This document shows, one piece after another, positions 30,207-63,884 of a DNA stretch of 64,000 nucleotides (positions within the stretch are counted from its first letter, which is position 1; the number at the start of each line of letters is the position of its first letter). The stretch spans positions 1-64,000 of the forward strand of contig SXID01000092.1 in the NCBI GenBank assembly GCA_005772955.1, written 5' to 3'. The notes under the pieces are model-generated. The model was not told the DNA's origin. It saw nothing but the letters and a program-made list of their open reading frames with translations, and did not search any database. The position numbers were made by a program, and so were the translations under genes. Source of the stretch: Planctomycetia bacterium. Its GTDB lineage: Bacteria; Planctomycetota; Planctomycetia; Gemmatales; Gemmataceae.

Positions 30207-30219
30207 GTGAACCTCTTTA

Positions 30220-30592
30220 TCGTAGTCATCACGCTCCGCGTGATGTCCGCGCCGTGGCGAGCAATAACGTCCGGCGCAAATCGCTACCGCGCCGCGAAGG
30301 CGACATCACGCGGAGCGTGATGACTACGATGAGAACCGCGTGTTGTCTTTATCGTAGTCATCACGCTCCGCGTGATGTCCGCGCTGCGGTAAGCGATTAC
30401 GTTTTGTTCAAAGCGCACCTGAACGGCGAAGGCGACATCACGCGGAGCGTGATGACTACGATGAGAACCGCGTGTTGTCTTTATCGTAGTCATCACGCTC
30501 CGCGTGATGTCCGCGCTGCGGTAAGCGATTACATTTTGTTCAAAGCGCACCTGAACGGCGAAGGCGACATCACGCGGAGCGTGATGACTACG
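30220..30592. repeat. Array of three 110-bp palindrome-ended units with 132-bp periodicity
   Basis: Units at 30220-30329, 30352-30461 and 30484-30592, each starting tcgtagtcatcacgctccgcgtgatgtccgc and ending gacatcacgcggagcgtgatgactacg(a); identical 22-bp spacers tgagaaccgcgtgttgtcttta. Confidence 0.95.
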
Positions 30593-30593
30593 G

Positions 30594-33302
30594 TTAATCC
30601 ACGAAAGCGAACTCGTTACTCAGCAACAGCACCTGCGCCAACTGCGGCCAGCGCCCGAACGCGCTCTTCAGGTCGTCGTCACCGACGAACTCCGTGGCGA
30701 GCGCAAGTTCGTCCTTTGTCGGACTACGCCCCAGCGCGACGCGGTACAGTGCCGTCACCTTCGCTTGCGCGGTCTTTGCTTCAGTGATTTCTTTGCGCCC
30801 CGCGAGCGCCTTCGCCTGATCTTGCACGTACGGGCTGTTGAGCAGGAACAGCGCCTGTTGCGGCACGGTGGTCTGGAAGCGCTGCGGGCTGTGTGTGTCG
30901 AGACTCGCCACGTCGAAGACCCGGAACGTTCCGGGCAGGTTGGTCCGATCCAGCAAGCCGTACACGGTGCGCCGCGTCGAATACGGTGCCTTGAGCAGAT
31001 CGACCGGCTTCCCGCCGCTGGTTGTGTCGAGCTTGCCTGATGCAGTGAGCAAGGAATCGCGTAAGCCCTCGAAGTCGAGCCGGCGGCGGTTCTGGTGCGC
31101 GAGTAGCCGGTTCTCGGGATCGAGCTTGTACATGTCACCCGACACCGCGCTCGACTGCTGATAGGTGGCCGACAGCATGATGCGCTTGTGAAGGCGTTTG
31201 ATGCTCCAACCGTCCTTCATGAAGTTGCTCGCGAGGTAGTCGAGCAGATCGGGGTGCGTTGGCGGGTCGGACCGCATACCGAGATCGGAAGGAGTGCGCA
31301 CCAGACCGTGCCCAAAGTGGCCTAGCCACACGCGATTCGCCATCACGCGCGCCGTCAGCGGGTTCTCCGGGGCAGTAATGGCCTTTGCGAGTTCGAGGCG
31401 CCCGCTGCCTTGCGTGAACGGTTTGCGGTTCGGCGCCACGATCTCGGGCGCTTGTCGCGGTACTTGAGGGCCGCGGTTGTTCTGGTTGCCGCGGAGGAAC
31501 ACCACAGGCTGCGTCGGGGATGCGTTGTCTTTCAACACGTGCGCCCGTGGTGGGGCGTACGGGTTCGCAACCTTGAAGGAGTCGATCTTCTTGCGGAGCG
31601 CCGCGAGCGCATCGCGGTCGGCGCGGTTCTGGATCTTGTCCGCGTCCGCGACCAAAATGTCGATCGGCCCGCCGGTAGCCCACACCTTGAAGAGTTCCGC
31701 CTGCTCCTTCGTGAGGGTGCCCGGAGGCGGGTTCGCGCCAACCGTGTTCGCGAGCGTCTCGGCCACAGCCTTCACGTTCTTCGGTTTCGCGTCCGTAATC
31801 GCCTTCAGCACCAATGGGTTCGTGTCTTTTGCGAGCGCCCCGAGCGCCTTCGCTTCAAAGTCTCTCTCCTGGAGCGCGACGAGCGCGAGCAGAGGTGAAT
31901 ACACGGGTGATTTGGCTTTCCACTCCGTTTCGAGGAACGTGCGCCAGCGGTCGTAGACGAGTCGCGTCAGGTCGCGCTGCCGCAGTAGCGCTTGCACCTC
32001 GTCGTTCGGTTTGCCGCGCAAGTCCAGCACCGCGCGGAAGTACTCGGCCACAGTGAACGGGTCGCGAAGTTTCTTCAGCGTGGTCGCGTGCCGCCGCGCG
32101 CTTTCAGCTTTGAAGTCGGCCTCGCGCCGGTCGAGTTCCAACTCGTAGGCGAGGACTTCTGGTGTCTGCTTCACCTCACCGATCAGCGGCAGTTCCGCCG
32201 GTTCGTTGGTGCTCGCAAACACGCCGTAAAGCGAGTAGTAATCCTTTGTCGGTATGGGGTCGTACTTGTGGTCGTGACAACGCGCGCACGTCACGGTGAG
32301 GCCCATGAAACCACGCGTCACTACGTCGATGCGGTCGTCAATGATGTCGGCTTGGTTGTTCAGGAACCGCCGCCCCAGCGTGAGGAATCCCATCGCCGCG
32401 AGCGGACGCTTATCCTCGCCGAGCGGAAGCAGGTCGGCCGCGATCTGTTCCGTCACGAACCGATCGTATGGCTTGTCTTCGTTGAACGAACGGATGACGT
32501 AGTCGCGGTAGGTGTAAGAAAACGCGAAGGCACGTTCCTGTGTGAGGACGTAGCCCTTCGAGTCGGCGTAGCGTGCGATGTCGAGCCAGTACCGGCCCCA
32601 GCGCTCGCCGTAGCGCTCGCTCGCGAGTAACCGGTCGATGAGTTTCTCCCACGCGTCTGGGGATTCGTCCTTCACGAATGCTTCAATTTCTTCGGCTGTA
32701 GGCGGAAGACCGATCAGGTCGAAGTACGCGCGGCGGATCAGCGTGCGTTTATCCGCTCGCGGCGCGAGTGACATCCCCTTGTCACTGAGCTTCGCGAGAA
32801 CGAACGCATCAATGGGGTAGAGCGGACCGTTCGCCTTCGGCTCACGGCTAACTTTGGGAACATCGGGTAGCTTGACAGGCTGGAACGCCCAGTGCTTCTT
32901 TGGATCCGTCGCCGGTCCAATGGCGATATCGTCAGGGATCGCGGCCCCACTCTTCACCCACTCCACCAGAATCTCGATCGCTGCTGGCGGAAGCGGCGTC
33001 TTGGGCGGCATCGGCAGTTCGTGCTCGCGCCGCACCGACTTGATGAGGCGACTCTTCGCGGGGTCGCCCGGCACGATGACTTTGCCGTTGTCGGCCCCTA
33101 CTCTGATGCCCGCGGCGGTGTCGAGGCGCAAACCGGCATTCTGCTTCTTCGCACCGTGGCACGAATAGCAGTTTTCCGCCAACACTGGGCGCACTTTCGT
33201 CTCGAAGTATTCGAGTTGCGCCGCAGTCGGTTTGGCGACAGGATCAGCAGCTAGTGCTGGAACGACATATGAAACGGTGCAGAGTGCGAGTAGCAACCGC
33301 AT
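30594..33302 (-). CDS. PSCyt1/DUF1549/DUF1553 domain protein
   Basis: ENCYSCHGAKKQNAGLRLDT; DAFVLAKLSDKGMSLAPRADKRTLIRRAYFDLIGLPPT; TCARCHDHKYDPIPTKDYYSLYGVF; ARVMANRVWLGHFGHGLVRTPSDLG. Confidence 0.96.
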   Translation of the reverse strand: MRLLLALCTVSYVVPALAADPVAKPTAAQLEYFETKVRPVLAENCYSCHGAKKQNAGLRLDTAAGIRVGADNGKVIVPGDPAKSRLIKSVRREHELPMPPKTPLPPAAIEILVEWVKSGAAIPDDIAIGPATDPKKHWAFQPVKLPDVPKVSREPKANGPLYPIDAFVLAKLSDKGMSLAPRADKRTLIRRAYFDLIGLPPTAEEIEAFVKDESPDAWEKLIDRLLASERYGERWGRYWLDIARYADSKGYVLTQERAFAFSYTYRDYVIRSFNEDKPYDRFVTEQIAADLLPLGEDKRPLAAMGFLTLGRRFLNNQADIIDDRIDVVTRGFMGLTVTCARCHDHKYDPIPTKDYYSLYGVFASTNEPAELPLIGEVKQTPEVLAYELELDRREADFKAESARRHATTLKKLRDPFTVAEYFRAVLDLRGKPNDEVQALLRQRDLTRLVYDRWRTFLETEWKAKSPVYSPLLALVALQERDFEAKALGALAKDTNPLVLKAITDAKPKNVKAVAETLANTVGANPPPGTLTKEQAELFKVWATGGPIDILVADADKIQNRADRDALAALRKKIDSFKVANPYAPPRAHVLKDNASPTQPVVFLRGNQNNRGPQVPRQAPEIVAPNRKPFTQGSGRLELAKAITAPENPLTARVMANRVWLGHFGHGLVRTPSDLGMRSDPPTHPDLLDYLASNFMKDGWSIKRLHKRIMLSATYQQSSAVSGDMYKLDPENRLLAHQNRRRLDFEGLRDSLLTASGKLDTTSGGKPVDLLKAPYSTRRTVYGLLDRTNLPGTFRVFDVASLDTHSPQRFQTTVPQQALFLLNSPYVQDQAKALAGRKEITEAKTAQAKVTALYRVALGRSPTKDELALATEFVGDDDLKSAFGRWPQLAQVLLLSNEFAFVD

Positions 33303-37090: not shown

Positions 37091-39652
37091 CTACCGCCTC
37101 AGCGAGTACAGCACGATCGCGCTAGCGATGCGAAGGGCGCTTTCCTTGTCGTGTCCGAGGCAGTCCGCGGACTTGTGGCCCTCGATCGCACAGCCGATGT
37201 CGTACCTGCTGTAGATCACGACCCAGCGGCCGTCGATCTTGATGCCTTCCAGCATCACCGGGTAGGTCCGAAGTTTCTTCTCCGCACCGGTCCCCTCGGC
37301 GTTCTCGCGGCGGCACTCCACCGAGCCAAGGTTAATCCCCGCTTGCGACGCGATCTTGTACAGTGGCTCCTCCTTGCCGTCGGGCGTGCGCGTCGGGATT
37401 ACCACCAATTTTTGGTCCGGGAACATCTTCAGCATCGCGTCGCGGAAGGACTGATCGAACACCTTCCACTGCTTGATGTCGTTGCACGCCGCGTCCGCGA
37501 GCAACAACCCACCGGTTTGCAAGTTCGCCTTGATGTTGTCCGACTCCTCCACCGTGAACGTGATCGGCTTGCGCCCGTGCAGGTACATGAACTTGTACTT
37601 CGTCAGTTGTACGGCGGACGGCGGAAGCACCTCACTCGTCAGCGCCACGTCGAGCTTCGCGTGTTGGCCGAGATACGCCATCAGGTTCCGCAACGCGTCG
37701 GACGCGGGCGGTTGTTGAACACTCGCGTCGCTGATGTACTTCAGTTGCAGCGCTCGGAACTTGCTTCGCGCGATGCCGCCCTTTTCGGGTGGCACGAGGA
37801 TCGTCTTGGTGAGTTTCGGTTTGGGAAGTTCCATCCCGGTCGCGTAGGCGATGATGTTCCTTGCGAGGCAGAACGCTTTCTCGCCGTGGTTCTTCGGGTC
37901 GCGGCCGTCCACCGGGAAGAATCGCCGTTCTTCCCAGTACCCCGCCAGCGGTCTTGGGCTGAAGATCGCGACCGTGCGGCACCCGCGATCGAGGTACATC
38001 AAGTCCGGGAAGTCACCCGGCCCGATGCCGGGGAACATGGTCCAGATCGCGTGTTCCGGCGGCACCTTCTTGAGCGCGCTGCCGGGGAAAATGCGGGCCA
38101 GCAGTTCCTCGAACGACGCTGCGAAATCCTTGTTGCCGCAGCACGCCTCCGCGAGCAGGAACCCGCCCTCTTCGACGTATCGCTTCAGAATCTGTTCGGG
38201 CACCGAGAGAGCGGTGTCGGTGGGGCGTGTGACGAACGGCATCGACCCGTGCCCGTTCATGTACACGAGTGGCGATTGCAGCAGCAGCCCGACCTCGGAA
38301 TCGATCTTGGCTTGCGTCGAAAGGTCTTGAAGACGCATGTCGTAGACCTGCCACGACAACGGCGCGCCGTCGAAGATTTCGCGCTGTGCGAACTCGACGA
38401 TGTTGCGGCAATCACTGTGCTTCCGGTTCCAGTTCGGAGCGTCCGTGATGGTGCCGTCGGGGTTGCGTTCGGTGAGGATCGCTTGATCCTGTTTGCCGAC
38501 TTCACCCTTGAGATAGTTGCCCCACGCGAACTTGCTGACCAGGACCGGCGTGCGGCCTTTCGAGAGGTAGAGCAGCGCAAACGACGAGGTGATGGTCGGG
38601 TAGCCCTTGTCGATACCGGGCGCGTCGGACGAGTACGCAAACGAGCCGTCAGGTTGCTGGAGTTTCACGAGCTTCTCGCAGCCCTCGCGATACCAGTCCA
38701 TCTTGCCGATGAACCGCTGCCCGGAGAGCCTGCCGAGGCGCTCGATGCCGTAGTAGTTGTAGAAGTACGATTTGCCCTGCTCGAAGTTGAAGTTGGCCCC
38801 GATGTAGAACATGCCCTTCGCGAGAGCGATGTTATCCGGGTAGATGCCGCACTTCGCGGCGACGCCGGTCGCGGCGTTCAGATCCTGCTCGCTCATGTCC
38901 AGCCCCATGTTCGCGATGAGCAGCCCACACGCACCGCCGACGCTCATGGTGTAACTTGGCCCCTCGCCGCCGGCGTTGTGGTACAGCCAATACCCGGCCT
39001 TCGGGTTCAGTTTGTCCTGCTTCTGGGTGCGGGTGTAGTAATCCTGAATGTCCTTCCAGAGTTTGTCCTCGATCTTGACGCCCGCGGTCTTCGCGGCGTA
39101 CAGTCCAAGCAGCGCGTATTGCGTGTTGGAGTTGTCCGCGATCGCGTTACCGGGGTAGCTCCAGCCTTCGAGTTTCCCGCCGCGGCGGATCACGTTCTTC
39201 TCGAACCACTCCACGTTCTTCGCGATCTTCGGAAGGTCTTTCTTGTCTCGCGACAGGATCAGCGCCTCAGACAGTGCCATCGTCTGAAGCGCGACGACAT
39301 ACGTCTTGGCCGGGGTGAGTTTGCGGAGGTAGTCCAGCCCGCCCTTTACGGTGGGGCTATCGACCTTCTCGCCAGAGTTGAGCAACGCGAGAACGGCGAG
39401 TGCGGTGGTGCCGCCGTCCATGTCCACGAGCGACTTGAGGACAACCCCTTCCCAGTGGCCATTGTTCTTCGCGGCGGTGTCCTTGAGGTACTTCACGCCT
39501 TTGTCGATGGAGTCTTTCACCTTGCCGACGAGTTCGCCGTCCGCGTTCGCGGCCTTCGGCGGTGCCGCCGGTTGCGCGGTCGTGGGCGACGAGGACACGA
39601 GAAGTACGCCGACGCAGAGGGCCAAGCCAACAGCCAACAGCGAACGGGTCAT
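37091..39652 (-). CDS. Squalene/prenyltransferase-like repeat plus DUF4159 domain protein
   Basis: Signal peptide MTRSLLAVGLALCVGVLLVSSS; NNGHWEGVVLKSLVDMDGGTTALAVLALLNSGEK; C-terminal DUF4159-like YLHGRKPITFTVEESDNIKANLQTGGLLLADAACNDIKQWKVF, occurring twice. Confidence 0.75.
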   Translation of the reverse strand: MTRSLLAVGLALCVGVLLVSSSPTTAQPAAPPKAANADGELVGKVKDSIDKGVKYLKDTAAKNNGHWEGVVLKSLVDMDGGTTALAVLALLNSGEKVDSPTVKGGLDYLRKLTPAKTYVVALQTMALSEALILSRDKKDLPKIAKNVEWFEKNVIRRGGKLEGWSYPGNAIADNSNTQYALLGLYAAKTAGVKIEDKLWKDIQDYYTRTQKQDKLNPKAGYWLYHNAGGEGPSYTMSVGGACGLLIANMGLDMSEQDLNAATGVAAKCGIYPDNIALAKGMFYIGANFNFEQGKSYFYNYYGIERLGRLSGQRFIGKMDWYREGCEKLVKLQQPDGSFAYSSDAPGIDKGYPTITSSFALLYLSKGRTPVLVSKFAWGNYLKGEVGKQDQAILTERNPDGTITDAPNWNRKHSDCRNIVEFAQREIFDGAPLSWQVYDMRLQDLSTQAKIDSEVGLLLQSPLVYMNGHGSMPFVTRPTDTALSVPEQILKRYVEEGGFLLAEACCGNKDFAASFEELLARIFPGSALKKVPPEHAIWTMFPGIGPGDFPDLMYLDRGCRTVAIFSPRPLAGYWEERRFFPVDGRDPKNHGEKAFCLARNIIAYATGMELPKPKLTKTILVPPEKGGIARSKFRALQLKYISDASVQQPPASDALRNLMAYLGQHAKLDVALTSEVLPPSAVQLTKYKFMYLHGRKPITFTVEESDNIKANLQTGGLLLADAACNDIKQWKVFDQSFRDAMLKMFPDQKLVVIPTRTPDGKEEPLYKIASQAGINLGSVECRRENAEGTGAEKKLRTYPVMLEGIKIDGRWVVIYSRYDIGCAIEGHKSADCLGHDKESALRIASAIVLYSLRR

Positions 39653-39679
39653 AGCGAAGTGCCTCCAAGAACGCGATGC

Positions 39680-39762
39680 ACCCCTCCCCAACCACTCCCC
39701 TAAGAAGGGAGGGGCTAAGATCGGAAGCCCCTCCCTTCTTAGGGGAGTGGTTGGGGAGGGGT
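39680..39762. repeat. 37-bp perfect-arm inverted repeat downstream of purL
   Basis: acccctccccaaccactcccctaagaagggaggggct (39680-39716) / exact reverse complement (39726-39762), 9-nt loop. Confidence 0.9.
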
Positions 39763-39785
39763 TCTTCGTACGGCCCATTATACAC

Positions 39786-42725
39786 TCACCACCGTAGCGG
39801 TTTCTGCCACGCTTCCTTCAGCACACCGAGTTTAACCCACAGCAGCCACTCGCCGTTGGCACCCGCAACGCGCAATCGCGGGTCAGAAACGGTGACCCCC
39901 ACCCGCGTAACCGGCACGCCCGCGAGACACGCCTCGAACGCGGGCGCGTGTTCTGGCTTCACTTCTACGAGGAAGCGCGTTGGCGATTCGCTGAACAACT
40001 TCGTCTCGTCAGAGAGCTTGCCAGGGATCGCGGTGATGTCCGCGCCAATGCCGCCCGCGAAGCACATCTCCGCCGCCGCCACCGCGAACCCGCCTTCACT
40101 CAGGTCGTGGCACGCGCGAATCCGTCCTTGCGCGATGGCCGAATGCACCGCGGCGAATACCTTCGGAGCGGTCGTGAGATCAACCTGCGGCACGGTCCCG
40201 CCGCTGCGCCCAGTCACGAGGTTGAAGTGTGACGCGCCGAGTTCGTCCTTCGTGGTGCCGATCAGATAGAGCAAGTTCCCTGGTTCCTTCAGATCCATCG
40301 TGACGCATTTGCGCACGTCCGTCACGCGACCGAGCGCGGTTACGAGCAGCGTGTGCGGGATATCGAGTCGCTCACCGCCCTTCCCCGTGTAGGTGTTATT
40401 CAGACTGTCCTTGCCGCTGATGAACGGCGTGCCGAACGCGACCGCCACGTCGCGACACGCTTCCGCGGTTCGGACCAGCGCACCGAGTACCTTCGGGTCG
40501 TGGATGTTGCCCCAACAGAAGTTGTCGAGGATCGCGACTCGCTTCGGGTCCGCTCCGACCGCGACCACGTTGCGAACGGCTTCGTCGATCGCGCACGCGG
40601 CGGCAGCGTAGGGATCGAGGTCCGCGAACCGCGGGTTGATGCCACAGCCCACGGCGGCCCCGGTCCACGATCCGAGAACCGGCATCACGACGGCCGCATC
40701 CGAAGGCCCGTCATTCGCCACGCCCACGAGCGGTTTCACCACGCTCCCGCCCTGGACCTCGTGGTCGTACTGGCGGATCACCCATTCCTTGGAACACACT
40801 GAGTAATGCGCCAGAATCGACAACAGAACATCCTGCGCGGTGTGCGTGGTGTCGGAACCTCGTCGCTCCCCCCCACCCGCCGGAGTCGCAGCGACTCCAG
40901 CGGGTGGGGGGTAAGCGTCACTAATCTCCCGCTCCTTCCGAGTGCCCCACTCGGCACTCTTGACAACAGTGGGGCGCCCATCATGGAGGAACTGCATGTC
41001 GAGATTCGCCACTTCCTTGCCCTGATACGAGAGTTTCAGGCGTCCACTTGCTTCAAACGTCCCCAGCACGGCGGCTTCTACATCCTCGCTCTCACAGAGC
41101 GCGCGGAGCTCGGGCCACAGCGCCTGAGATACCGACAGCACCATGCGTTCCTGCGATTCGCTAATCCAGATTTCGGTGTAGCTCAACCCTTCGTACTTCA
41201 GCGGTGCCTTATCGAGATGCACGGTCGCGCCGAGGTCCGCGCCCATTTCGCCGACCGCAGAGGAGAAGCCTCCGGCACCGCAGTCGGTGATCGCGGTGAA
41301 CAGGCCGCGGTCGCGCGCCTGAATGATCACATCTTGGACCTTCTTCTCGGTGATGGCGTTGCCGATCTGTACCGCACCTCCGCTCACCGTTTCCGACTCG
41401 TGCGTGAGTTCCAGGCTGGAGAACGTCGCGCCGTGAATCCCGTCGCGCCCGGTGCGTCCGCCAACGGCAACGATCAGATCACCGTCGAGCACCTTCTTGA
41501 ACGCCTTGTCGTGCGGGATGATGCCGACGGTACCGCAGAACACGAGCGGGTTCGCGAGGTAGCGTTCATCGAAGAGGATCGCCCCGTTCACGGTGGGAAT
41601 GCCCATGCGGTTGCCATAGTCGCGCACACCGGCGACCACGCCGCGCATTACACGCCGCGGGTGCAACACGCCCTGCGGAAGTTGATTCGCGTCGAAATCC
41701 GGCGGCGCGAAGCAGAAGACATCCGTGTTGCACACCGGCTTCGCGCCGAGTCCGGTGCCGAGCAAGTCGCGAATCACCCCGCCGAGGCCAGTGTTCGCGC
41801 CGCCGTATGGCTCGATGGCGCTGGGGTGGTTGTGCGTTTCGACTTTGATGCAGATGTGAAACTTGTCGTCGAACTTCACAATGCCCGCGTTGTCTGAGAA
41901 CACGCTCACACACCAATCGTCCGCACCGAGGTGCGCACGGATGGTTTGCGTGGCCCCGAACACCGTTTCCTTGAGGAGATTCTTGTAGACGCGCGTTTCG
42001 CCAGTGCCGTGATCCGTGAAGGTGATTGTGCCCTTGAGGGTCTTGTGCGAGCAGTGTTCGGACCACGTCTGGGCGATGGATTCGAGTTCCGCGTCGGTCG
42101 GCTCGCGCCTCAGGTCGCGGAAGTGTGCTTGCACCACCTTCATCTCGTCAAGCGAGAGCGCGAGCGTGTTCTCCTTACTGAGTTTTACGAGTCCGGTGTC
42201 GTCAAGTTGCGTGAGCGGCACCGTCAGCAACTTGAATGAGTACGGCGAGCCGAACGCGAGGTGATCGGCCTTCACCGGACCGACGACAATTTGCTCGATG
42301 GCATCATTTGCGAGTACCTTGCGGAACAGCACGTCGCGGTCGAGTGAGGAGATTTCCGGCGGGCCATTGTAGCGGCGGAACGTGCGCACAGCCGTCACCG
42401 GGATGCCGAGCACCTGCACTGTGTCGAGGACCGTTTGCGCGACCGGGTCCATCACTCCGGGCTTCAGCAACACCGAGTACGAATGCGTTGTGCGTGAGCC
42501 GACCGGCGCAAACTCCGCTGCTTCCACCAGCGGATCGGCAAGCACTTCCATTGCGAGCCTCGCACGATGTTCGACGCTCAGGTCGCCTTCGAGCAGGAAG
42601 CCGCGTGCGCTCGCGGTGATATAGTCAGCGCCGCGGTCAGCGTGTGTGAGGAGGTCGAACTCGGCGCACACGCGTTCACGCTCGCCATCCTTACCGGTAG
42701 GCCGAATCTCAAGTTCCCAAAGCAT
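39786..42725 (-). CDS. purL: Phosphoribosylformylglycinamidine synthase subunit PurL with N-terminal PurS-like region
   Basis: QTWSEHCSHKTLKGTITF, VETHNHPSAIEPYGGANTGLGGVIRDLLGTGLGAKPVCNTDVFCF, GNIHDPKVLGALVRTAEACRDVAVAFGTPFISGKDSLNNTY. Confidence 0.96.
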   Translation of the reverse strand: MLWELEIRPTGKDGERERVCAEFDLLTHADRGADYITASARGFLLEGDLSVEHRARLAMEVLADPLVEAAEFAPVGSRTTHSYSVLLKPGVMDPVAQTVLDTVQVLGIPVTAVRTFRRYNGPPEISSLDRDVLFRKVLANDAIEQIVVGPVKADHLAFGSPYSFKLLTVPLTQLDDTGLVKLSKENTLALSLDEMKVVQAHFRDLRREPTDAELESIAQTWSEHCSHKTLKGTITFTDHGTGETRVYKNLLKETVFGATQTIRAHLGADDWCVSVFSDNAGIVKFDDKFHICIKVETHNHPSAIEPYGGANTGLGGVIRDLLGTGLGAKPVCNTDVFCFAPPDFDANQLPQGVLHPRRVMRGVVAGVRDYGNRMGIPTVNGAILFDERYLANPLVFCGTVGIIPHDKAFKKVLDGDLIVAVGGRTGRDGIHGATFSSLELTHESETVSGGAVQIGNAITEKKVQDVIIQARDRGLFTAITDCGAGGFSSAVGEMGADLGATVHLDKAPLKYEGLSYTEIWISESQERMVLSVSQALWPELRALCESEDVEAAVLGTFEASGRLKLSYQGKEVANLDMQFLHDGRPTVVKSAEWGTRKEREISDAYPPPAGVAATPAGGGERRGSDTTHTAQDVLLSILAHYSVCSKEWVIRQYDHEVQGGSVVKPLVGVANDGPSDAAVVMPVLGSWTGAAVGCGINPRFADLDPYAAAACAIDEAVRNVVAVGADPKRVAILDNFCWGNIHDPKVLGALVRTAEACRDVAVAFGTPFISGKDSLNNTYTGKGGERLDIPHTLLVTALGRVTDVRKCVTMDLKEPGNLLYLIGTTKDELGASHFNLVTGRSGGTVPQVDLTTAPKVFAAVHSAIAQGRIRACHDLSEGGFAVAAAEMCFAGGIGADITAIPGKLSDETKLFSESPTRFLVEVKPEHAPAFEACLAGVPVTRVGVTVSDPRLRVAGANGEWLLWVKLGVLKEAWQKPLRW
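40869..40911. repeat. Palindrome inside the purL coding sequence
   Basis: ccccccacccgccggagtcgc a gcgactccagcgggtgggggg; one mismatched pair over 43 nt; encodes the linker YPPPAGVAATPAGGGERRG. Confidence 0.75.
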
Positions 42726-43554
42726 CGCGTACCTGCTTCCCTTCGGTTAACCACCGCACGACCCCGGCACGGTCGCCGGCCTCGAGCAGGGTTTGGAATT
42801 CTTGTAATCTTTGCGTGAACGTGGTCATCGCAGCGAGCACGCTGTCTTTGTTTGCGTCGAAGATCGCGGCCCACAACCTCGGGTCGCCCGCTGCGATGCG
42901 GGTCACGTCACGAAAGCCGCCGGCCGTGAGGTTGAGCCAGTCCGACTGCGTCACACCGGCCACCGCGGACGCGACCGCGTGCGGCAAGTGACTGGTGAAC
43001 GCAAGCACGCGATCGTGTTCGTCGGCGTTCATCAACACGACGCGTGAGCCGAGCGCCTCCCAGAACCGGCCGACCGCGAGCGTGCGTTCCCAGTTCGCGC
43101 CGAACGGACCCATGATTACCGCTACGACGCGATTCTGGAACAGGTCGGCGCAACTGAATTCCGAGCCAGACTTCTCAGACCCGGCCAGCGGGTGAGCCGG
43201 AACGTACTCCACGCCCGGAGGCAGATTCCCTCGAACCGCAGCGACGATCGCAGCCTTTGTACTGCCCGCATCGGTGAACAGCGTGCCCGGCTTCGCGTGC
43301 CGCGCCGCAGTCACGATCACCTCGGCAATCCGGTCCACTGGCGTACAGACGACGACCAAACCTGACCCGGCAACGCCTTCGGCCAGGTCCATGCGATAGT
43401 CGTCGATCGCAGCGAGTGCGAGAGCGTTCGCAAGAGCGTTCGGGTCGGCGTCCACGCCTATCACGCGGCCTGCGACCCCGCGCACACGTGCGGCAAGGCC
43501 GACCGAGCCGCCAATCAACCCGACACCGACGATTGTGATCTGGTCGAACAGCAT
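42709..43554 (-). CDS. tyrA: Prephenate/arogenate dehydrogenase
   Basis: ITIVGVGLIGGSVGLAARVRGVAGRVIGVD, FTDAGSTKAAIVAAV, FVPAHPLAGSEKSG-type motif (YVPAHPLAGSEKSGSEF). Confidence 0.92.
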   Translation of the reverse strand: MLFDQITIVGVGLIGGSVGLAARVRGVAGRVIGVDADPNALANALALAAIDDYRMDLAEGVAGSGLVVVCTPVDRIAEVIVTAARHAKPGTLFTDAGSTKAAIVAAVRGNLPPGVEYVPAHPLAGSEKSGSEFSCADLFQNRVVAVIMGPFGANWERTLAVGRFWEALGSRVVLMNADEHDRVLAFTSHLPHAVASAVAGVTQSDWLNLTAGGFRDVTRIAAGDPRLWAAIFDANKDSVLAAMTTFTQRLQEFQTLLEAGDRAGVVRWLTEGKQVRDALGT

Positions 43555-58942: not shown

Positions 58943-61828
58943 GTGCCGCTGTTGTTCGCCGTCACGATGTTCGTGAGCGCGTCGCTACTGTTCATGGTTC
59001 AGCCGATGGTCGCCAAGGCCGTTCTTCCACTACTGGGCGGAAGCCCGGCCGTGTGGAACGGCTGTATGGTATTCTTTCAGGCACTCTTGCTCCTGGGCTA
59101 CCTCTACGCTGACCGAATCACGCGAGTGAACGACACGCGTAAGCAGTGGATGATCCACCTCGCAGTCCTTGCGTTGCCGATCACCGTATTCGCGTTGGCT
59201 GTGTTATTCAGCACGAAACACACACCAATCGCAGTGGTCGAATCGCTCGCACCCACGGACGGCGCCAGCCCTGTCATCAGCGTACTGGCGATTCTCACAG
59301 TCGCGATCGGCATCCCGTTCTTCGTGTGTTCCACCACGGCGACGCTGCTCCAGAAGTGGTTCACGTACACCGGGCACCCGTCAGCACGTGACCCGTACTT
59401 CCTGTACGCCGCGAGCAACTTCGGCAGCCTGATCTCACTCCTCGGCTACCCAATCTTTATCGAACCGAACCTGACGCAAGGCGGGCAGACTTGGGTGTGG
59501 GCCTTTGGCTTCGCGGGGCTGGCCGGCTTGATCGCGTTCTGCGGTAAGGCCGCAGTCAACCCGCTCGGCGTACCACCTTCGACAGCGAAAGCCTCTGACA
59601 AACAAGTGGCGCCCGCGGGCGAGAAGGGTCAGACCTTGCCGCCCAGCGAGCCGCCGCCGACATGGGGGCGCATGGCGAAGTGGACCGCGCTCGCGTTCGT
59701 GCCCAGCAGCCTGATGCTCGGCGTCACGTTCCACATGACGACCGACATCGCGAGCATCCCGCTGTTGTGGGTCGGCCCACTCGCGTTGTACCTGGTCACG
59801 TTCATCATCGCGTACGGGCGAGTCCCGCCGTGGTTCCGGATCCTGATCGGCAACCTCGCTCCTGTGATGATCCTGTTGCTCGTGTTCCTGCTGATCTCGG
59901 GCGTGAACCCCGGTGTCGGTCTGAGCCTGATGTTGCACCTGCTCACGTTCTTCGCCGCGGCGTTGATGTGCCACTACGAATTGGCCCGCGACCGCCCCAG
60001 TCCCCAATATCTGACCACCTACTTCCTCATCATGTCGCTCGGCGGCGTGCTGGGCGGCATCTTCAACTCGCTCCTTGCCCCGATCCTGTTCGCGCAGGAC
60101 TACGAGTACAAACTGGTACTCATCGTCTCGTGTCTGATGGTCCCGCGGCTCAGCCCGCTCGACCAGAACGAGAAGGAAACGAAGATGAGCAACCAGACCG
60201 CGCTGACAGCCGACATGGCGGTCAACCTGAGTACGAACTGGCTGGTTTACGGCGTGCGTTGGGTCATGCGACTGATCGACCGCGACAAGCGGGTAGCGTG
60301 GGCGCTTGACATCGCGATCCCAATTATCGTCGCGCTCGTGTTCTGGCGATTGCAGAAGGTGGGTTCTGTTGAGGTCTACGGGAACGCGTTACGGAGTATT
60401 TCCAAGAACCTGGGCATCGGAGTGCAGACGATTCACATCGTCTTCGTGTACGCGTTACCGGTAATGGTGTGCTTCTTCTTCGTGGACCGGCCGCTGCGGT
60501 TCGCGCTGTGCGTGGCAATCATCCTCGGCATGAGCGTGTTCCGAGACGAGTCGAACGATGAGGTGAACACCGTTCACACCGAACGCAGTTTCTTCGGCAT
60601 CCTGAAGGTCGAACAGCGTGGGCACTTCACTCGCCTGGTCCATGGCACCACGCTGCACGGCACGCAAATCAACGAGAAGTTCCGTCCACATTGGGCCGAC
60701 GAGTTCCAGCGGTTGACCGCAATGCACCCGTTCGAAAACATCGTCGTCACCGGCGCACATCACAGCTTTAACGCCCGTGAGGAACCGCTGACTTACTACC
60801 ATCGCACCGGTCCCGTCGGTGCGATGTTCAGCGAACTGAGTTCGTCCACACGGAAGAATGGCGCAGACGCGAACTCGCACATCGCAATGGTCGGCCTCGG
60901 CACCGGGAGCGTGTCGTGTTACGCCAAGAAGGGGCAGAAACTCACCTACTACGAAATCGACCCGGCAGTGAAACGAATCGTGGAGACTCCGTGGAAGGTG
61001 ATGAACCCTGAGGAGGTGAAAAAGGGCGAGACACCCGTGATGGGGCCCTTCACCTACGTTCACGATGCCCGGCAACGCGGCGCAGAGATCGACTTCAAGA
61101 TGGGCGACGCCCGCCTGAAATTGAAGGAGGACACGGACATCCGGTACTCGCTGCTGCTGGTCGATGCGTTTAGCTCCGACTCGATCCCGGTCCACCTTCT
61201 TACCAATGAGGCGGTGCAACTGTACCTCGACCGGATGACCGACGATGGCATCCTGGCGCTGCACATCTCCAACAAGTTCGTGCGTCTGGAACCGGTAGTT
61301 GCCGCAATCGCGAAGCACCACAATCTCGTTGCACGCGTGTGGAACGACGACGCCGAGGGGCGTCCGGGTAAGACCGCGTCAAGTTGGGTCGCACTGAGCC
61401 GCAAACGCAACCCCGACGACCTTCAGGGGCACCTGGGCGCGAAGATCGGCTCACCGATCGGGGATCTGGTGGGCAAATACGGTAGCGGGTCGCAGTTGAT
61501 ACGTGTTCTACGCGACATCTATCCCGAACTCGTCACGGTACTCGACAAGTCCCCGTTAAACCAACAGGACAAGTTGCTCGAATGGCTCGACAAGCGGACC
61601 GACGACGAGGCGAAACGGTACGCGGCGCTGGTTCGCAAACACACTGCGTTCGCCACGACAATGACGGTTCTGTACGCGGAGACCGGCTACGGGTTCCGTC
61701 CCGTGGACACGCTCGATGGAGTGGAGGCCTGGACTGACGACTACGCCGACGTGATGCGGGTGATGATGATTCCCGAACTCCAGGCGGTGCGGAAGTTCTT
61801 CGGTCTGCCGACGCCGGTGGAACGGTGA
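58943..61828 (+). CDS. Fused polytopic membrane/spermidine synthase-like protein
   Basis: 961 aa; SASLLFMVQPMVAKAVLPLLGGSPAVWNGCMVFFQALLLLGYLYA N-terminus; C-terminal SAM-like region IAMVGLGTGSVSCYAKKGQKLTYYEIDPAVKRI ... YSLLLVDAFSSDSIPVHLLTNEAVQLYLDRM. Confidence 0.88.
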   Translation: MPLLFAVTMFVSASLLFMVQPMVAKAVLPLLGGSPAVWNGCMVFFQALLLLGYLYADRITRVNDTRKQWMIHLAVLALPITVFALAVLFSTKHTPIAVVESLAPTDGASPVISVLAILTVAIGIPFFVCSTTATLLQKWFTYTGHPSARDPYFLYAASNFGSLISLLGYPIFIEPNLTQGGQTWVWAFGFAGLAGLIAFCGKAAVNPLGVPPSTAKASDKQVAPAGEKGQTLPPSEPPPTWGRMAKWTALAFVPSSLMLGVTFHMTTDIASIPLLWVGPLALYLVTFIIAYGRVPPWFRILIGNLAPVMILLLVFLLISGVNPGVGLSLMLHLLTFFAAALMCHYELARDRPSPQYLTTYFLIMSLGGVLGGIFNSLLAPILFAQDYEYKLVLIVSCLMVPRLSPLDQNEKETKMSNQTALTADMAVNLSTNWLVYGVRWVMRLIDRDKRVAWALDIAIPIIVALVFWRLQKVGSVEVYGNALRSISKNLGIGVQTIHIVFVYALPVMVCFFFVDRPLRFALCVAIILGMSVFRDESNDEVNTVHTERSFFGILKVEQRGHFTRLVHGTTLHGTQINEKFRPHWADEFQRLTAMHPFENIVVTGAHHSFNAREEPLTYYHRTGPVGAMFSELSSSTRKNGADANSHIAMVGLGTGSVSCYAKKGQKLTYYEIDPAVKRIVETPWKVMNPEEVKKGETPVMGPFTYVHDARQRGAEIDFKMGDARLKLKEDTDIRYSLLLVDAFSSDSIPVHLLTNEAVQLYLDRMTDDGILALHISNKFVRLEPVVAAIAKHHNLVARVWNDDAEGRPGKTASSWVALSRKRNPDDLQGHLGAKIGSPIGDLVGKYGSGSQLIRVLRDIYPELVTVLDKSPLNQQDKLLEWLDKRTDDEAKRYAALVRKHTAFATTMTVLYAETGYGFRPVDTLDGVEAWTDDYADVMRVMMIPELQAVRKFFGLPTPVER

Positions 61829-62946
61829 CAACGGTTGGTGTCGTTGGGGCGAGCGCGCGGGCGGCGGTTCATGCGCTCACCCGCGCCGGGTTCTCTGCGT
61901 GGGCAGTCGATCAGTTCAACGACCGCGACTTGAAACGCATTGCCGCGTGCGCGTTGTGCCCTTCCAATGATTATCCCACCGCGATTCCAGAACTCGCGGC
62001 GCTATTCCCGCCGGGCCCATTCATCTACACGGGCGGTCTCGAAAACCATCCAGACATCGTTTCGGAACTCTCGCAGACGCGCGAACTCTGGGGCAACCCG
62101 CCCGAAGTGCTGACGCGAGTCCGTGACCCAATCCAACTGACTGCGATGCTCAACGACGCCGGGTTCGCAACGCCACGAGCGGCGACCCAACCGGTCGAAG
62201 GACGCTGGCTGCGCAAGCCACTGAGTTCTGGGTCCGGGATCGGCATCCGCTTCGCACAACCGGGCGAGCCCGATTCACCCCGGCACTACATTCAGGAGTT
62301 CATTGAAGGCGTGCCGATGTCGGCGATCTACAGCGGGACGACGTTCATTGGCGTGACGGAACAACTGATTGGCGAACCGTGGTTGCACGCATTGCCGTTC
62401 GCGTACTGCGGGAACATCGGGCCAGTCGCGACTCCCCCCGGCGCGCTGAACACTCTCGCGGACTCGCTCGGACTTCGTGGCGTCTGGGGACTCGACTTCA
62501 TCCTGAAAGGCGACGCGCCCTACCCCGTCGAACTGAATCCGCGATACACGGCAGCGGTGGAGGTACTGGAACACGCGACAGGGAAGAACCTACCCCCCCG
62601 GCCCCCCTTGCTTCAGGGAGGGGGGAGCCTGACTTCCCCCCCCCCCCCTGAAGGTTGGGGGGCCGGGGGGGTAAGTTCTTCACGGGTCATCGGTAAAGCC
62701 GTCTACTACGCGCCTCGCGCAATGACTTTCCCCCAAAGCGGTCCGTGGGACGCGGACCTCACCGGTACGTTCGACCCGTGGCGCCTACCGGGCTTCGCGG
62801 ACATCCCCGACGCAGGCAACGCGGTCCAGACCGGCTGGCCTGTGCTCACGTTCTTCGCGACCGGAAACACACCCACCGAAGTCCGTGAACGGCTACAATC
62901 ACGCGCGACGGAACTCGATCGTCTCTTCGCGGAGCATTCACGATGA
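61825..62946 (+). CDS. ATP-grasp domain protein of the H4MPT C1-gene neighbourhood (GTG start)
   Basis: TTVGVVGASARAAVHALTRAGFSAWAVDQFNDRDLKRIA ... GRWLRKPLSSGSGIGIRFA ... LRGVWGLDFILKGDAPYPVELNPRYTAAVEVLE; 4-nt overlaps on both sides. Confidence 0.85.
   Translation: MTTVGVVGASARAAVHALTRAGFSAWAVDQFNDRDLKRIAACALCPSNDYPTAIPELAALFPPGPFIYTGGLENHPDIVSELSQTRELWGNPPEVLTRVRDPIQLTAMLNDAGFATPRAATQPVEGRWLRKPLSSGSGIGIRFAQPGEPDSPRHYIQEFIEGVPMSAIYSGTTFIGVTEQLIGEPWLHALPFAYCGNIGPVATPPGALNTLADSLGLRGVWGLDFILKGDAPYPVELNPRYTAAVEVLEHATGKNLPPRPPLLQGGGSLTSPPPPEGWGAGGVSSSRVIGKAVYYAPRAMTFPQSGPWDADLTGTFDPWRLPGFADIPDAGNAVQTGWPVLTFFATGNTPTEVRERLQSRATELDRLFAEHSR
62584..62680. repeat. 97-bp palindromic element inserted in frame in the ATP-grasp gene
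   Basis: aagaacctacccccccggcccccc ... ggggggccgggggggtaagttctt, 23 of 24 pairing at the ends; encodes KNLPPRPPLLQGGGSLTSPPPPEGWGAGGVSS. Confidence 0.9.
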
Positions 62947-63884
62947 CACTCAATGAACGCGCCCAACTACTAGCCGACGAAGTGGAACGCAACGCTGTAC
63001 GACTGCGTGTACACGTGACGAAAGTCGCGGGTGCGCGCGTGATCGATTGCGGCGGTGCGGTGCAAGGGAGCCTCGCGGTCGGATTGCTGCTCGCGCGGGC
63101 GTGCCTCGCGGACGCGGCCGAGGTAGCCTACGTCCCCTGCCCCGTCACTGGCGGTCCTGCGGTCCAGGTGACGACCGACGATCCCGTTCGTGCATGCCTC
63201 GCGTCACAGTACGCTGGCTGGCATGTGAGCGCGGGCAAGTTCTTCGCGATGGGTTCAGGGCCGATGCGCGCACTCGCGGCACGCGAGGAACTCTTCCAGC
63301 ACATCGCTGCTAAGGAAGAATCACCGTTCGCGGTCGGGGTACTGGAAACGCATCAGCACCCAACGGAAGAAGTGATCGCGGCCATCGTAGCGAAACTGCC
63401 GCTGGTTGCGGAACACCTCACGTTGCTCGTCGCGCCGACCACGAGCATCGCGGGCACGACGCAGATCGTCGCGCGCTCAGTCGAGACGGCGCTCCACAAA
63501 CTCCACGAACTGAAGTTCGACGTGAATCAGATCGTGAGCGGTTACGGCGTGGCTCCGCTGCCGCCACTCGCAACGGATTTCGTTCAGGCCATCGGCCGCA
63601 CGAACGACGCGATCCTATACGGGGCGAAAGTCGTGCTGTGGGTCCGCGCGGACGACGAGTTGCTCGAACAGATCGGGCCAAAGGTGCCGTCGTCCGCGTC
63701 GAAAGATCACGGGGCGCCGTTCGCGGAAGTGTTCGCGCGCTACAACAACGACTTCTACATGATCGACCCGCTGCTGTTCTCGCCGGCGGAAGTGGAGTTC
63801 CGCAACTTGAAGACGGGGCGCTGTCACCGGTTCGGCAAGGTCGAGCCGGGTTTGCTGCGAAAGTCGTTTGGGCTAAGCGGATGA
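62943..63884 (+). CDS. mch: Methenyltetrahydromethanopterin cyclohydrolase
   Basis: 313 aa; VIDCGGAVQGSLAVGLLLARACLADAAEV, GWHVSAGKFFAMGSGPMRALA, THQHPTEEVI, GRTNDAILYGAKVVLWV. Confidence 0.95.
   Translation: MTLNERAQLLADEVERNAVRLRVHVTKVAGARVIDCGGAVQGSLAVGLLLARACLADAAEVAYVPCPVTGGPAVQVTTDDPVRACLASQYAGWHVSAGKFFAMGSGPMRALAAREELFQHIAAKEESPFAVGVLETHQHPTEEVIAAIVAKLPLVAEHLTLLVAPTTSIAGTTQIVARSVETALHKLHELKFDVNQIVSGYGVAPLPPLATDFVQAIGRTNDAILYGAKVVLWVRADDELLEQIGPKVPSSASKDHGAPFAEVFARYNNDFYMIDPLLFSPAEVEFRNLKTGRCHRFGKVEPGLLRKSFGLSG

Follow-up and report, generated by a model that had tools for sequence, protein, structure and literature searches.

The question raised by this locus is whether a palindrome lying inside an enzyme gene is a mobile DNA element that has become protein sequence. 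The window, the whole stretch of 64,000 nucleotides that was analysed, carries on its forward strand an open reading frame (61825–62946) for a 373-residue ATP-grasp protein (PF02655, ATP-grasp_3, E 2e-17, residues 102–243), and the palindromic element occupies 62583–62681 within it. PDB 3df7 aligns with this protein as far as residue 256, which is where the insert starts, directly past the ATP-grasp core motif ELNPRYTAAVEVLEHATG, and a second conserved stretch begins at IGKAVYY after the linker. The inter-domain linker (62576–62690, forward strand) is hypervariable: its content in orthologues ranges over different palindromes, a remnant and a short stretch free of palindromes. The element is an inverted repeat with 43-nt arms that are 88% complementary and separated by a 13-nt spacer. 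The left arm, GAAGAACCTACCCCCCCGGCCCCCC..., at 62583–62625 (forward strand) is of the C7/C6, genic type described below, and the right arm at 62639–62681 (reverse strand) is its reverse complement, with TAAGTT in place of the TAGGTT of the family. The predicted RNA fold of the element has an energy of -86.7 kcal/mol, with z = -6.9 relative to dinucleotide shuffles. The near-perfect ends described in the earlier note were recovered, but the middle of the palindrome is imperfect. No stop codon is encountered where the frame crosses the element, in agreement with the proposed in-frame insertion, and the inserted peptide is the one given earlier, continuing ...GAGGVSSS. The placement in an H4MPT operon was also correct: the adjoining mch gene (62943–63884, forward strand; TIGR03120, E 5e-126; PF02289) encodes methenyltetrahydromethanopterin cyclohydrolase and overlaps the ATP-grasp gene by 4 bp. 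Judged from the sequence, the cell probably makes enzymes with an extra loop rich in proline and glycine.

Within the 64-kb window, the arm CCTACCCCCCCGGCCCCCC has 3 matches at up to 3 mismatches (0.03 expected), 2 of which are the element's own arms. Other palindromes are also present in the window. A 95-bp palindrome (CCCCTCCCCAACCACTCCCCTAAGAAGGGAGGGG...GGGGAGGGGTTCTTCG), probably of a related family, lies at 39674–39768 near the start of the minus-strand ORF 37094–39817. A 43-bp palindrome (CCCCCCACCCGCCGGAGTCGC/GCGACTCCAGCGGGTGGGGGG) is found in frame at 40869–40911 within a 986-residue minus-strand ORF (39789–42746), and a tandem array of hairpin units (GACATCACGCGGAGCGTGATGACTACGAT) with at least 3 inverted pairs is open as a repetitive ORF at 30219–30597.

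The element belongs to a dispersed family. A BLAST search of its own genome (G000, 5.93 Mb in 278 contigs) returned 69 pieces, and the exact arm ACCTACCCCCC occurs 73 times there, compared with 0 occurrences of a control pattern. Reading of 64 regions resolved about 62 elements, a minimum count because 4 of them sit at contig ends. Each unit of the family is built from an outer stem AAGAACCTACCCCCC(C)NN and one or two GC-rich hairpins, to which an interior, often a further palindrome in itself, may be added. The short form (33–60 bp) is a single hairpin, such as AACCTACCCCCCCGGCCCCCCTCCCTGAAGGGAATGGGGCCGGGGGGGTAGGTT, and the long form (80–156 bp) combines an outer stem with two hairpins and an interior that varies and that in about 10 long copies holds another palindrome of the GCCGC...GCGGC or CTGCGCTCG types. 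At a cut-off of E <= 1e-3, 14 of the 19 genomes in the genus have matches, for the most part 36–66 each, with 4 and 6 in two of them. Outside the genus, 1–9 matches occur in 3 of 18 genomes from the rest of the taxonomic family, and none of 22 genomes from other families has any. An exact-match scan with a strict short-form pattern, which may miss near relatives, matched only 2 of 14.1 million contigs, namely an ORF with the typical peptide in a 'Singulisphaera sp.' assembly and a palindrome of unrelated appearance in an Akkermansiaceae assembly. The Singulisphaera record, the mch gene context and the earlier note are the grounds for placing the genus with the planctomycetes. No published description of elements of this kind in this lineage was found in the literature covered, which comprised papers outside subscription.

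The copies inside genes were classed by comparing the codon-usage frames of both flanks, using a model trained on the long ORFs of the window. In the element's own genome, 18 copies are in frame and open, to which L098 can be added as judged by its ORF; 3 more share the frame and contain a stop, 6 have both flanks on one strand but out of phase, 25 are bordered by a stop codon within 60 bp and 6 lie between opposite strands. Among same-strand copies without a flanking stop, 21 of 27 are in phase, against 9 expected at one third (p 3e-6). Pfam domains flank or span the insert, including those of a NifS-like aminotransferase, ketoacyl synthase, type III PKS, CobW, RarA/MgsA, the CCA-adding enzyme and others. 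A sister genome assembled as a single, complete contig (G007) was read at 60 places and gave 49 copies with both arms, 30 of which are in frame and open in genes. Only 2 of its 32 same-strand copies are out of phase (p 1e-12), and the length of its in-frame copies is divisible by three in 27 of 30, most commonly exactly 132 bp. Hosts in G007 include penicillin amidase, AIR-synthase-like, CobW, antiporter and SMC-hinge proteins, and copies in different genes reach 93% nucleotide identity. As read from the G007 peptides, element interiors are found in either orientation and stay open in each, since a palindrome of 3n length gives both strands the same frame. In-frame insertion without disruption, a behaviour of Rickettsia palindromic elements, extends across 18–19 unrelated genes in one genome and 30 in the other.

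The earlier note held that its proposal would fail if orthologues shared the segment as conserved protein sequence or if the genome had no other nucleotide copies. Tens of other copies are present, and the orthologues do not hold the segment as conserved protein. In the ATP-grasp linker of same-genus orthologues, this family is found in G000, G015, G016, G012, G009, G005 and G007, at junctions that vary and often as a series of consecutive elements. G018 has another palindrome there, the nearest relative G001 keeps a 16-nt remnant (GAAGAACCTCTCCCCC), the left 16 nt, and is not a virgin empty site, and the other linkers of the genus are short or unrelated. All these orthologues remain in frame, and among them are those of G012 and G016, whose genomes are complete or nearly so. 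For the pair G000 and G015, with a common junction, dN/dS is 0.29 before the linker and 0.20 after it; the linker value of 0.83 compares two different inserts and is indicative only. The flanking domains are under purifying selection, and the linker is near neutral. The central claim, that a mobile palindrome can turn into protein sequence, is well supported by the dispersed copies, the in-frame copies of both genomes, the domains on either side of the inserts, the insert-free orthologous loops and the selection on the flanks of two insert-bearing orthologues.

Several observations on unlike palindromes accompany these sites. Unrelated palindromes of the GACCGTCAGGGAGCG and AAGCCGC...GCGGCTT types are found in frame in other species, filling these same loops (L133, L031, L035, L145, L155), and one of the GACCGTCAGGGAGCG type is nested within this element in the G015 ATP-grasp gene. 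A second C-rich family (AACCTAACCCCCTAACCCCCTTCCCTAAGAAGGAAGGGGG, peptide EPNPLTPFPKKEGGTEP) is in frame in genes of G001, G007, G009 and G012 (L137, L142–L149, L161–L165). In G009 the reading frame of RarA breaks off where the element lies, and the NifS-like site contains a stretch of N (L138, L149, L163), reflecting either real decay or assembly trouble at palindromes.

The sharing of sites raises the alternative of old vertical inheritance, according to which a few tolerant loops were entered once in the genus ancestor and their interiors were swapped in place by gene conversion, nested insertion and slippage. The common junction of G000 and G015, the left 16 nt kept in G001, the similar outer ends with different interiors, and the occupation of the RarA, NifS-like, PKS, CobW and ATP-grasp sites in both G000 and G007 are in its favor. 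However, the ATP-grasp junctions lie several codons apart between G016, G005, the group of G012, G007 and G009, and G000; wholly different palindromes stand in the same loop in G018, G003 and G010; and tens of genic copies in G007, with up to 93% identity across genes, need some spread. In the RarA, NifS-like and PKS genes, different palindromes fill the site in some species and others are clean, and a tree of the ATP-grasp core is compatible with more than one number of insertions. As a full account, single ancestral entry is conceivable and on balance doubtful, although a single old insertion whose interior has turned over, and not repeated insertion, may account for some shared sites. The preferred reading, which we hold with high confidence, is a non-autonomous palindromic repeat of the MITE or REP kind, mobile or recently mobile, which multiplied through the genus, was filtered by the reading frame and has its genic copies kept as loops and linkers.

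A role of the reading frame is suggested by two arm subfamilies. Genic copies have ACCTA-C7-NN-C6 arms, and most of their lengths (54, 132 and 138 bp) are multiples of three, whereas extragenic copies mostly have ACCTA-C6-AA-C5 arms, measure 50 and 130 bp and lie directly beside stop codons. The short form is 54 bp, or 18 codons, with C7 arms and 50 bp with C6 arms. Among copies with parsable arms in the own genome, genic arms are C7 in 12 of 12 and extragenic arms are C6 or shorter in 21 of 27 (Fisher p 5e-6). The corresponding counts in G007 are 28 of 28 genic arms with a run of at least 7 C and 10 of 18 extragenic arms with C6 or shorter (Fisher p 1e-5). The simplest account of this association between arm type and position is the reading-frame filter. 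About 86% of the window is coding, so insertion blind to coding by an element of 3n length with one open frame of three would leave about two-thirds of the survivors in genes, which is near the 28 to 8 counted for C7 elements in G007. An element of other length under the same filter is expected between genes only. A more elaborate proposal is that a coding-adapted lineage (3n length, one frame open on both strands, C7/C6 arms) moves by preference between genes, as a module for protein loops, and that an extragenic lineage (C6/C5) targets the 3' ends of genes. We offer this only tentatively and think it rather unlikely; if true, genic and intergenic DNA would be separate niches of one selfish element.

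The extragenic copies have a pattern of their own. In the own genome, 30 gene sides face non-genic copies, and in 24 of them no more than 15 bp separate the element core from the start of the stop codon; one further side has its stop 35 bp away, and the other five extend into the core or beyond it. Stop-abutting copies were noted at loci L060–L122, for example L062, L071, L084 and L120. Such tight hugging of stop codons is beyond what frame filtering alone explains, and it may reflect target choice or function there. REPs in other bacteria likewise lie close to gene 3' ends (PMC3733652). This proximity and the very strong hairpins would suit functional 3'-end signals, that is, bidirectional terminators or mRNA stabilisers whose genic copies are accidental. 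But genic copies equal or outnumber extragenic ones (30 of 49 in G007) and form their own C7 subfamily, a strong mid-gene terminator would do harm, and the hairpins have no following T run, so that we judge this explanation improbable.

Mobility of the repeat is suggested by the dispersal and identity of its copies. It has terminal inverted repeats and, like a MITE, no transposase gene; no transposase, RAYT or parental insertion sequence tied to it was found. Among the exact arm matches in G007 and the own genome, where the assembly breaks at copies, no facing arms lie 0.5–3 kb apart. Direct target repeats are not in excess in the own genome (p 0.85), and G007 has a weak 3–5 bp excess at uneven offsets. 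Inverted target duplication was considered and rejected, with no excess in G007 and a weak one only in the own extragenic copies. In some copies, such as L089 and L085, the flanks extend the palindrome.

An origin as a RAYT-mobilised REP/REPIN family of the GTAG superfamily would account for the hairpins, the dimer-like long form, the TAGGT at the ends and the extragenic copies near stop codons, a placement published for REPs (PMC3733652). Against this, none of the 8 Y1_Tnp matches in the own genome is close to an element copy, the GTAG is found 3' of the hairpin, external to it, and not at the 5' base, and the unit is mostly 50–156 bp. Moreover, Y1_Tnp counts across the genus do not track the element: G007 has 0 with 51 element matches, and G008, G013 and G014 have 4–7 without the element. 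A RAYT/REPtron origin was rejected on these counts, and RAYT mobilisation is very unlikely.

Finally, an assembly or sequencing artefact at GC-rich homopolymers, suggested by the four copies at contig ends, the 13-C run in the window copy and the N runs and broken frame at such sites in a sister genome, is hardly credible, as the single-contig G007 has the same pattern with lengths clustering at 132 bp and the ATP-grasp inserts of G012 and G016 are in frame. The earlier concern about sequencing error is fair for the 13-C run itself, an error-prone spot, but the frame is kept at the same site in other genomes, some of them complete, and an artefact is thus unlikely for the phenomenon as a whole.

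With the repeat mobile or recently mobile, its insertion would be roughly indifferent to coding context, and selection would then purge insertions that shift or stop the frame. Such selection would leave codon-length copies in genes and copies of other length outside them. The codon-length subfamily, 54 or 132 bp with one frame open in either orientation, would survive in surface loops and linkers, where it would be read as a peptide rich in proline and glycine (PTPPSPLPEGKG...SPFPSGRGDGGVGSS); the subfamily of other length would survive outside genes only. In the ATP-grasp gene, the tolerant linker just past the core would have repeatedly gained, overwritten and lost palindromes.

Most descriptions of in-frame 'coding palindromes' come from Rickettsia-like endosymbionts, and scattered cases elsewhere involve REPs and MITEs; we know of no identified enzyme that mobilises the Rickettsia palindromic elements. 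These are dispersed repeats of about 100–150 bp in several families, many in frame in unrelated housekeeping genes as unstructured segments and others intergenic (Ogata et al. 2000, 2002, as cited in PMC10969869). The present family resembles the Rickettsia and Wolbachia elements in its dispersed palindromes, many in-frame genic insertions and other intergenic copies, and its size (33–156 bp in the own genome, typically 54 or 132 bp in G007) and tens of copies are comparable. It differs in its host, a planctomycete-type genus with genomes of 5–10 Mb that is neither an endosymbiont nor a member of Rickettsiales; in its GC-rich sequence coding for proline and glycine; in its division into codon-length genic and non-codon-length extragenic subfamilies; and in having nested palindromes and one loop filled by different palindromes in different species. 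The resemblance to Rickettsia palindromic elements claimed earlier stands for behaviour, as compared by description, and membership is not claimed.

Two other systems are similar in part. GTAG/CGTC REPs are small hairpins, single or in inverted dimers, near gene 3' ends; some are intragenic and encode 20–30 residues, sometimes at the same gene site in related species, as in recB (PMC3733652). The present elements are likewise small hairpin repeats, with extragenic copies near gene 3' ends and some genic, but the 5' base of the hairpin lacks GTAG, there is no RAYT link, the unit is longer and a large share of the copies is genic. Among bacterial MITEs, in-frame fusions are described for ERIC, the enterobacterial RU elements and Coxiella QMITE1 (PMC10969869, PMC2759123). 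These too are non-autonomous, have terminal inverted repeats, occur between and within genes and can add peptides; unlike them, the present palindrome spans nearly the whole unit, and no parental insertion sequence or clear target-site duplication was found.

The best reading is that the element would work as Rickettsia palindromic elements do, but in a planctomycete-type genus. This large-genome genus has dozens of in-frame copies per genome, subfamily lengths that predict genic position, and the same loops filled or empty in relatives. The conversion of selfish DNA into protein sequence thereby becomes measurable in its rate, its reading-frame filter, its tolerated sites and its effect on enzymes. 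The family also carries a warning for annotation, as segments of the PTPPSPLPEGKG...GAGGVGSS type in these proteins, rich in proline and glycine, are DNA repeats and not conserved domains.
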